From: Halorientalis regularis
Lineage (GTDB): Archaea; Halobacteriota; Halobacteria; Halobacteriales; Haloarculaceae
Direction: 5' to 3'
Length of the DNA: 64,000 nt
NCBI RefSeq assembly: GCF_023698535.1
Contig: NZ_JALJCL010000004.1
Location: 186,001-250,000, forward strand
Shown here: positions 57,094 to 59,249 of the stretch, in pieces
Position numbering within the stretch: the first letter of the stretch is position 1
How the letters are laid out: each line of letters opens with the position of its first letter
Translations under genes and position numbers: made by a program
The notes under the pieces: generated by a model
Seen by the model: the letters and a program-made list of their open reading frames with translations, nothing else
The model's database searches: none
Told to the model about the DNA's origin: nothing

Positions 57094-57138
57094 CCCTCTG
57101 TCGACGACGAGCGCGAGCCCGCTTCCTCTCGCGGCGAT

Positions 57139-57658
57139 GTGAGCGACACGCAAAGCGGTCGCTCACGGATTTGTTCGCCGCAGGAATGCGCTGGCCGAGA
57201 TTTGAACACGCCGAGACGTTCCGGGCATGCGGCGCGTCGCGCCGTTCCGAGGCTGCGACTCGTCTGCTCAAATCTCTGAGCGATTTCGTCTCGCACGGAA
57301 GTGAGCGACACGCAAATCAGTCGCTCACGAACCTGCGCTCGACAGAAATGCGCTGGCCGAGATTTGAACACGCCGAGACGTTCCGGGCATGCGGCGCGTC
57401 GCGCCGTTCCGAGGCTGCGACTCGTCTGCTCAAATCTCTGAGCGATTTCGTCTCGCACGGAAGTGAGCGACACGCAAATCAGTCGCTCACGAACCTGCGC
57501 TCGACAGAAATGCGCTGGCCGAGATTTGAACTACGCGAAGACGGTCTCTCCCTGCGGCCGAGCGTGCGTCTTCTCTCGTTCAAATTCGGTGCGACGTTGC
57601 GACTCACGGACGACTCGCGACACTACGCGTCGCTCGTCGGTGTTGTTCGTCGCAAAAG
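57139..57658 (-). repeat. 162-bp tandem array made of tRNA-Gly 3'-end copies and hairpins
   Basis: A 21-bp piece equal to the last 21 bases of the tRNA-Gly gene occurs at 57187-57207, 57349-57369 and 57511-57531, and finally in the real tRNA (57659-57679). The first three are exactly 162 bp apart. Each unit also has a perfect hairpin, arms GTGAGCGAC and GTCGCTCAC with a 10-nt loop, at 57139-57166, 57301-57328 and 57463-57490. An antisense piece (TCAAATCTC, for example 57269-57277) pairs with the tRNA piece across about 60 bp. The unit next to the tRNA (57532-57658) is a diverged copy with GTTCAAATTCGG in the same place. There is no integrase nearby. Confidence 0.85.
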
Positions 57659-57729
57659 TGCGCTGGCCGAGATTTGAACTCGGGTTAGGACCGTGGCAGG
57701 GTCCTGTGATACCACTACACCACCAGCGC
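57659..57729 (-). tRNA. tRNA-Gly (anticodon GCC)
   Basis: 71 nt on the minus strand with discriminator A and no encoded CCA. Acceptor stem GCGCTGG/CCAGCGC (7 bp), D-arm GTGTAGTGGTATCAC, anticodon stem GGACC/GGTCC with loop CTGCCAC (anticodon GCC), T-arm CCGAG/CTCGG with loop TTCAAAT. All stems are perfect. No intron. Its 3' end is repeated three more times just downstream in its direction of transcription. Confidence 0.95.
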
Positions 57730-58373: not shown

Positions 58374-59249
58374 ATGACAGTCAGCGTACTCGTGCCGTCA
58401 TCGCTGACCCGGGAAGCCGAGGACAAACGCGAGGCAACTCGCAAACTCGGTTACGTCGCCCGCGCGGCGGCGGTGTTCCGGGTCGATCGCCTGGTCGTGT
58501 TCCCCGATTCCGGGGCCGAAGGCCGGTGGGGTGACGGGTTCGTCGAAACCGTGCTGCGGTACGCCGCGACGCCGCCATACCTCCGAAAGGAGGCGTGGGG
58601 TAAGCGGGACGAGCTGGAGTACGCGGGCGTCCTGCCGCCGCTCCGCGTCGCCTCACGGACCGGCTCCGGATCGGACGATTCGGGGTCGTTAAGACAGGGA
58701 ATCGTGACCGAGGTCGGATCTGACGGGCGCGTTCGGGTCAATTGCGGACTGCAACACCCGATCTCCCTCCCTGAACCTGACGAAGGTCTCACGGAGGGGG
58801 AGCGCGTTTCCATCAGGGTCTCTTCGCGACGGCCGGTCCGCGCCAAGTTCGTCGACGAGTCCCCGCCGGGATTCGTCGTCGAGGCGTCGGACCTCTCGAC
58901 GGAGCTCTCGCGTGACGACGCCGGCGTTCGCATTGCCACATCACGGCACGGCGAACAGCTGAGTGTCGACCGTCTCGGCGACATCGTCGCCGACACGGCG
59001 CCGCGAGGGACGACGGTCGCGTTCGGAGCGCCCGAGCGCGGCCTGCCGGAGATACTCGGTGTCGCCCCACCGGGCGGCGACGAGGGCGGTGCAGAGACCG
59101 AGCGAGAACGGACGGATCTACCCGCGGACGAACCGGATGGGTCCCGGTTCGACCTCTGGTTGAACGCGGTTCCGAACCAAGGCAGCGAGGTCGTGCGAAC
59201 CGAAGAAGCGATGTTCGCCGTGCTCGCCTGCCTCTCACTCACGGAGTGA
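58374..59249 (+). CDS. SPOUT-class putative RNA methyltransferase at the head of the ribosomal operon
   Basis: 291 aa from ATG 58374 (MTVSVLVPSSLTREAEDKREAT). The SPOUT alpha/beta-knot core has VDRLVVFPDSG at the start and TTVAFGAPERGLPEIL with WLNAVPNQGSEVVRTEEAMFAVLA as the knotted SAM-binding loop at the end. An inserted OB-like domain (about 105-190) is typical of archaeal and eukaryotic SPOUT proteins in this place. It likely methylates rRNA during 50S assembly; substrate unproven. It leads directly into rpl3 (7 nt). Confidence 0.82.
   Translation: MTVSVLVPSSLTREAEDKREATRKLGYVARAAAVFRVDRLVVFPDSGAEGRWGDGFVETVLRYAATPPYLRKEAWGKRDELEYAGVLPPLRVASRTGSGSDDSGSLRQGIVTEVGSDGRVRVNCGLQHPISLPEPDEGLTEGERVSIRVSSRRPVRAKFVDESPPGFVVEASDLSTELSRDDAGVRIATSRHGEQLSVDRLGDIVADTAPRGTTVAFGAPERGLPEILGVAPPGGDEGGAETERERTDLPADEPDGSRFDLWLNAVPNQGSEVVRTEEAMFAVLACLSLTE

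Follow-up and report, generated by a model that had tools for sequence, protein, structure and literature searches.

The genome of Halorientalis regularis (G000) contains, within the 64-kb stretch of DNA analyzed here (hereafter the window), a tRNA-Gly(GCC) gene that is followed on its own strand by a short tandem array (Table 1). Read in the sense of the transcript, a unit of this array consists of a first hairpin (H1), which immediately follows a discriminator base, then an inverted T-loop sequence, the core of a second hairpin (H2), and a copy of the 3' end of the local tRNA. The minus strand holds the T-loop-to-discriminator 21-mer GTTCAAATCTCGGCCAGCGCA once in the tRNA itself and three more times as exact downstream copies, with the nearest extra copy 148 bp from the tRNA's own, the extra copies spaced 162 bp apart, and no further site at up to five mismatches on either strand of the 64 kb. 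Analysis of the array with TRF returned a period of 162, 2.5 copies, and a score of 713.

Table 1 Features of the tRNA-Gly(GCC) array, in window coordinates.
Feature	Position	Strand	Note
tRNA-Gly(GCC)	57658-57729	minus	ARAGORN; Rfam RF00005, 64 bits
tRNA-Gly(GCC) mature 3' end	57659	minus	discriminator A
tRNA-Gly(GCC) T-loop-to-discriminator 21-mer	57659-57679	minus	GTTCAAATCTCGGCCAGCGCA
Unit 1, H1 trailer hairpin region	57587-57658	minus	
Unit 1, H2 and tail	57511-57586	minus	
Unit 1, inverted T-loop	57579-57586	minus	AATTTGAA
Unit 1, tRNA 3' copy	57511-57531	minus	21/21
Unit 2, body (H1 and H2)	57370-57510	minus	
Unit 2, H1 hairpin	57463-57490	minus	
Unit 2, inverted T-loop	57427-57438	minus	with H2 core AGACGAGTCGCAGC..GGAACGTCTCGGCGT
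tRNA-Gly 3' end, copy 2	57349-57369	minus	21/21
Unit 3, body	57208-57348	minus	tandem duplicate of unit 2
Unit 3, hairpin	57301-57328	minus	
Unit 3, inverted T-loop	57265-57276	minus	
tRNA-Gly 3' end, copy 3	57187-57207	minus	21/21
Terminal H1-like trailer hairpin region after last copy	57123-57186	minus	
Terminal trailer hairpin	57139-57166	minus	

What the preliminary description observed at this locus is confirmed, with two refinements. The three downstream copies are exact and alone in the 64 kb, the perfect 9-bp hairpins GTGAGCGAC/GTCGCTCAC are all present (at 57139, 57301, and 57463), and the inverted repeats said to bound each cassette are the inverted T-loop sequences. The antisense tRNA piece that had been ascribed to every unit, TCAAATCTC, is real at 57268-57276 and 57430-57438, but the hairpin at 57139 has no antisense/copy pair behind it and is a terminal trailer. 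Similarly, the unit nearest the tRNA, which had been called diverged, does differ in sequence, though not as a decayed copy: units 2 and 3 have one common H2 family, whereas unit 1 has another (GAAGACGC..GACCGTCTTC) together with a different H1, and a near-identical H1 lies directly behind the tRNA-Gly of a congener (G002).

The genes around the array are ordinary, encoding a sensory-rhodopsin-transducer-like protein, an RNA methyltransferase, ribosomal protein L3, and an amine oxidoreductase, and, in agreement with the preliminary description, no integrase or transposase was found among the six neighboring proteins checked. Separately, a strong match to the L4-Archaeoglobi leader family of Rfam (75 bits, cut-off 34.5) lies at window positions 58720-58816 on the plus strand, within the predicted RNA methyltransferase gene and ahead of that for ribosomal protein L3; this Rfam family may partly capture coding sequence.

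Anatomy of the cassettes

Across the collection, units are non-coding and about 75-160 bp long, with H1-H2 spacers of mostly 75-145 bp and a median unit body of 98 nt. The inverted T-loop is GATTTGAA or a local variant of it, and the copied tail comprises the T-loop, the 3' strand of the T-stem, the 3' strand of the acceptor stem, and the discriminator of the local tRNA (about positions 53-73). Aligned over 248 copies, this identity block runs from approximately position 53 to the discriminator and has sharp edges, with an identity of 0.89-1.00 inside the block, 0.70 one base before it, and 0.56 one base past the discriminator; the values inside the block are inflated by the selection of copies at 17/21 matches, which leaves the drop at the edges unaffected. 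Judged by eye, at least five H2 families recur, including, besides that of unit 1, CAGGGAG..CGACCGTG, GAGGACGAGCG..GTCCTCGC, GCCAGTCGCGCGC..CGTCTGGC, and CCGAGGTTCTGCGCGG..CCGCAGGTTCTCGG.

Several variations on this plan were observed. Some copies behind Thr, Trp, and Leu tRNAs have an extra T-loop base (e.g., TTCACAATCC and TTCATAATCC; loci L230, L284, L060, L310, L157, and L158), which breaks the T-loop identity and leaves the H2 stem in place with a one-base bulge. At tRNA-Asp, Lys, and Gly(TCC), units terminate in a common tail, TTCAAATTCCGACCGACGnAGTCGGTCG, in place of the local tRNA 3' end (L053, L209, L216, L217, and L243). A second tRNA-tail element, which begins with CCCACTTTTTAC or TCCACCTTTTTC and contains AAAAACGTGGG..AAAAA, was seen at 13 of 268 tRNAs, either flush behind the 3' ends of tRNA-Pro, Ala, and Arg (L069, L080, L204, L226, L232, L245, L263, and L304) or further down, behind the copies of an array (L054, L056, L210, L269, and L294), and at L047 a stretch resembling it precedes an incomplete copy of a tRNA 3' end.

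Distribution in the genome and across Halobacteriales

A scan of the flanks of all listed tRNA genes of G000 found copies of the gene's own 3' end behind 24 of the 44 (45 copies in total), with none in 58.8 kb of upstream control sequence. Arrays are also present in four congeners, and downstream copies were found for 21/52 tRNA genes in G002, 14/34 in G005, and 17/33 in G006. G002 also gave four upstream matches, whose probable source is a clustered block (L220) that is included in its 52 tRNA genes. Such dense blocks of clustered, diverged tRNA genes, seen at G000:C4:112978-117203 (L066) and G002:C1:2240734-2244630 (L220), look virus- or plasmid-derived.

The array was to count as a single local duplication if its unit occurred nowhere else and no related strain had a copy or a variable number, yet a search with the 162-bp unit matched 43 of 58 genomes. 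In G000, this search found a second site behind tRNA-Ser(CGA), where a stretch is 82% identical to the body of unit 2, and the repeats there hold the 3' end of tRNA-Ser, not that of tRNA-Gly. Of 29 matched loci taken from relatives (L006-L034), all but L026 have a tRNA gene, of one type or another, beside the match. With at most one mismatch, all 12 matches to the H2 head in G000 lie behind tRNA genes. In a species-level genome collection, the 16-mer GATTTGAATCAGGGAG is present in at least 115 stretches and, among the matches listed, falls within 600 nt behind a same-strand tRNA at 74 of 79 haloarchaeal sites (median distance 49 nt; three of the five exceptions lie at stretch edges), covering tRNAs of 14 amino-acid types, as compared with 0/38 of the listed non-haloarchaeal sites, which are chance matches. 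When any base was allowed at one position, the H2 head motif occurred in 223 of 392 Halobacteriales genomes and 68 of 95 genera, a reversed-pattern control gave zero in every genome listed, and a phylum-wide sample held a single match outside the order (G515). The window array is one array of an order-wide family of non-coding cassettes located at mature tRNA 3' ends.

Shared H2 cores and turnover between relatives

Cores of H2 are common to different tRNAs and genera, whereas each copied tail corresponds to the local tRNA. Among the H2 cores taken from the tRNA listings, 62 of 72 had a relative of at least 80% identity at a different tRNA, and 77 of the 83 pairs of similar H2 joined different tRNAs, with only six joining tRNAs of the same type. 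Over the whole collection, same-tRNA pairs made up 22% for H1 versus 8% for H2; H1 types are also common to several tRNA types, and certain H1 sequences of Ser(CGA) and of Gly(GCC) are present in several species, each time paired with a different H2. The same element is found at many genomic sites and has no coding capacity, as would be expected of a MITE-like element.

Between congeners, orthologous tRNAs carry differing numbers of units: Gly(GCC) has three units in G000, none in G002, and two each in G005 and G006, and Ser(CGA) has five, four, two, and none, respectively. At Ser(CGA), the downstream gene region aligns among G000, G002, and G006 despite their five, four, and zero units, and the empty site, with its conserved downstream gene, retains an H1. 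The Gly(GCC) locus of G002 likewise keeps an H1 and an inverted T-loop without any copy, which marks it as a remnant and not a virgin site. Congeners show H1 and H2 types in reshuffled combinations, and no simple polarity of insertion, such as the tRNA-nearest-first order known from CRISPR and integrons, was apparent. No insertion within a species was caught; the closest pair (~95% alike) differs by one unit, a difference for which tandem recombination accounts.

A further comparison came from tRNA-Trp in the genus g24 (52 genomes), where G036 has two units, G315 has one related unit, and G144 has one unit of another H2 family. In these three genomes, the last copy is followed by the flank AGCGGTCTTC or a similar sequence, which in G530, G236, G251, and G357 stands directly behind tRNA-Trp, with exact junctions. 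Either the units were inserted upstream of the flank or the flank used a copy as its attachment site. Sequences behind tRNA-Trp in this genus (L330-L359) differ in many species, as they should where integration is frequent, and because of this variation the flank is possibly itself an integrated element.

Signals at the RNA level

Thermodynamically, H2 is 4.8-5.0 kcal/mol more stable as tRNA-sense RNA than as its complement (149 versus 29 units). Dinucleotide-shuffled controls account for 1.6 kcal/mol of this difference, leaving an excess of 3.2 (p = 3e-16, 146 reduced cases), a p-value that is overstated because related H2 sequences are not independent, though the direction is consistent. The inverted arm is also fitted to its own tRNA, with which it forms 3.37 of 5 extra T-stem pairs as compared with 2.42 after shuffling (the maximum of 1000 shuffles being 2.62), and in the first H2 family the inner stem is closed by a CG, TA, or GC pair in 88 of 94 sequences. 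H2 thus combines covariation with sense-strand-biased folding, the pattern of a conserved structured RNA, and its sense-strand stability and the adaptation of the inverted arm to the local tRNA make it probable that the hairpin is maintained in its RNA form. Some of the fit of the arm could arise without selection through quasi-palindrome correction, which would not by itself produce the strand bias. Where copy and tRNA differ, antisense pairing fits only the copy in 23 cases and only the tRNA in 11, a weak preference, since the anchoring used in the comparison itself favors the copy. Inspection of H2 by sequence alone revealed no canonical motif that would identify it as a C/D-box guide or a kink-turn.

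These signals lend indirect support to an idea raised in the preliminary description, that the array may be a source of small RNAs, which strand-asymmetric folding and pairing fitted to the local tRNA would favor. They also bear on the foremost alternative to a mobile element, since a conserved RNA fold and an adapted antisense arm could mean host function: the units would be selected tRNA-trailer RNAs, with H2 either released from the tRNA transcript or controlling tRNA 3' maturation as its antisense T-loop switches between the tRNA and the copy. The strand preference, the fit of the arm to its own tRNA, and the constrained closing pair all speak for such an RNA. However, its distribution is patchy, with roughly half of the tRNA genes lacking units and orthologues in congeners carrying 0 to 5, and the array has no match in Rfam 15 at E-values up to 1, nor up to 10, RtT included. 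We consider this explanation unlikely, though the most probable of the alternatives.

A proposed model for cassette movement, and its alternatives

On the genomic patterns described above, we posit that the cassettes are non-autonomous, RNA-structured mobile DNA that would insert flush at tRNA 3' ends and multiply by repeat recombination, a reading for which we see support and doubt in about equal measure. Upon insertion flush with the mature 3' end, a new cassette would leave the tRNA intact because the T-loop-to-discriminator segment flanks it on both sides, much as an att identity block or a duplicated target site would. Arrays would grow, shrink, and reassort through recombination between the 21-bp direct repeats, and H2 cores could pass between tRNA genes via the T-loop sequence present at both of their ends, since this sequence is common to nearly all haloarchaeal tRNAs; such transfer would require no more than homologous recombination or, alternatively, a recombinase supplied in trans. 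The array is presumably transcribed together with the tRNA, in which case the H2 fold would keep the antisense T-loop paired with its own copy and unavailable to the tRNA, rendering the insertion harmless, and may have been kept for that reason.

As in elements inserted by tyrosine integrases, the tRNA 3' identity block is found on both sides and the tRNA is intact, but the window array has no integrase inside or beside it. G000 has 15 tyrosine-recombinase matches, 12 of them over the cut-off and none in the window, and these enzymes are candidates to act on the cassettes in trans. No cassette matched phage or plasmid records, viral contigs gave chance matches only, and no autonomous partner with matching ends was found among the virus, phage, and plasmid sequences searched. 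The earlier proposal of small non-autonomous elements accumulating at this tRNA is strongly supported by their presence at many tRNAs and in many genera, their variable copy number, and the existence of sites with and without units, on a scale far wider than had been supposed; present-day movement and a mobilizing enzyme are putative parts of this proposal.

Attachment-site remnants or decoys would offer another explanation, with the copies being either scars left by proviruses, similar to attL/attR, or alternative sites at which integration would spare the tRNA. Haloarchaeal integrative elements do duplicate the 3' parts of tRNA genes (PMC7921747, PMC3119063), and in g24 the same flank adjoins either tRNA-Trp or the last array copy. 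The spacers, though, are recurring H1-H2 hairpins at no fewer than 14 tRNA types and not leftover phage DNA, and scars would not have common H2 cores, which makes this account improbable. A simple tandem duplication of the region 3' of the tRNA, as suggested by the near-identity of units 2 and 3, holds for the last duplication step in the window, but as a full account it is contradicted by the presence of the same H2 cores at other tRNAs, both within this genus and in others, and is highly improbable. Mobilization by reverse transcription, Cas1/casposase, or an integron integrase, each able to make repeat-flanked arrays of similar layout (an array beside a fixed site, a repeat duplicated per unit, a hairpin-bounded unit), is scarcely credible and as a present-day mechanism in these genomes largely refuted, with RVT_1 in 0 of 58 genomes, Cas1 missing from G000 and from 41 of 58 genomes (including the array-bearing G002, G005, G006, and G036), and no integron integrase over the TIGR02249 cut-off in any of the 58, though one of these systems may have been a past source.

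Relation to known systems

The nearest precedent for the cassettes is the tyrT/rtT repeats of E. coli, whose 178-bp spacing at tyrTV we confirmed and which contain the annotated RttR RNA. There, too, tandem units stand behind a tRNA gene and each has a copy of the tRNA 3' end; however, that system involves one locus and one tRNA, whereas the cassettes lie behind about half of the tRNA genes and have an inverted T-loop arm and several H2 families interchanged among tRNAs. The integrative elements and proviruses of haloarchaea that target tRNAs (PMC7921747, PMC3119063) also duplicate the 3' part of their target tRNA and spare it, but are kilobase-sized and encode a XerC/D-type integrase, unlike these arrayed, non-coding units of 75-160 bp. 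Integron attC arrays similarly consist of uniformly oriented hairpin units with tips of variable length beside a fixed site, but the cassettes here come without integron integrase or cassette genes and fold better on the transcript strand. With MITEs and REP/REPIN palindromes they have in common that they are short, non-coding, dispersed palindromes without an enzyme of their own, and they differ in being confined to tRNA 3' ends, in a single orientation and with a tail from the local tRNA.

In the genome of Haloferax gibbonsii LR2-5, 11 partial tRNAs have been reported, several of them immediately beside the full gene (PMC7921747), and these are probably the same cassettes as met during annotation; the passages of that paper on partial tRNAs mention neither spacers nor hairpins, nor that such copies form a family. 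Searches of open-access main texts turned up no account of these cassettes as a family, of their hairpins, or of their exchange between tRNAs.

Taken further, the cassettes might represent a new mobile class, selected in the form of an RNA hairpin and addressed to the tRNA T-loop, forming integron-like arrays that would colonize any tRNA harmlessly, moved by a putative host or viral recombinase and supplying tRNA genes with exchangeable non-coding tails, a proposal that we advance tentatively and consider unlikely as it stands. Remarks on partial tRNAs aside, an order-wide non-coding family found at a large proportion of tRNA genes has apparently been overlooked. Its existence bears on the tolerance of tRNA genes to insertions, on tRNA 3' ends as hot spots of integration, and on the origin of small RNAs from tRNA trailers.
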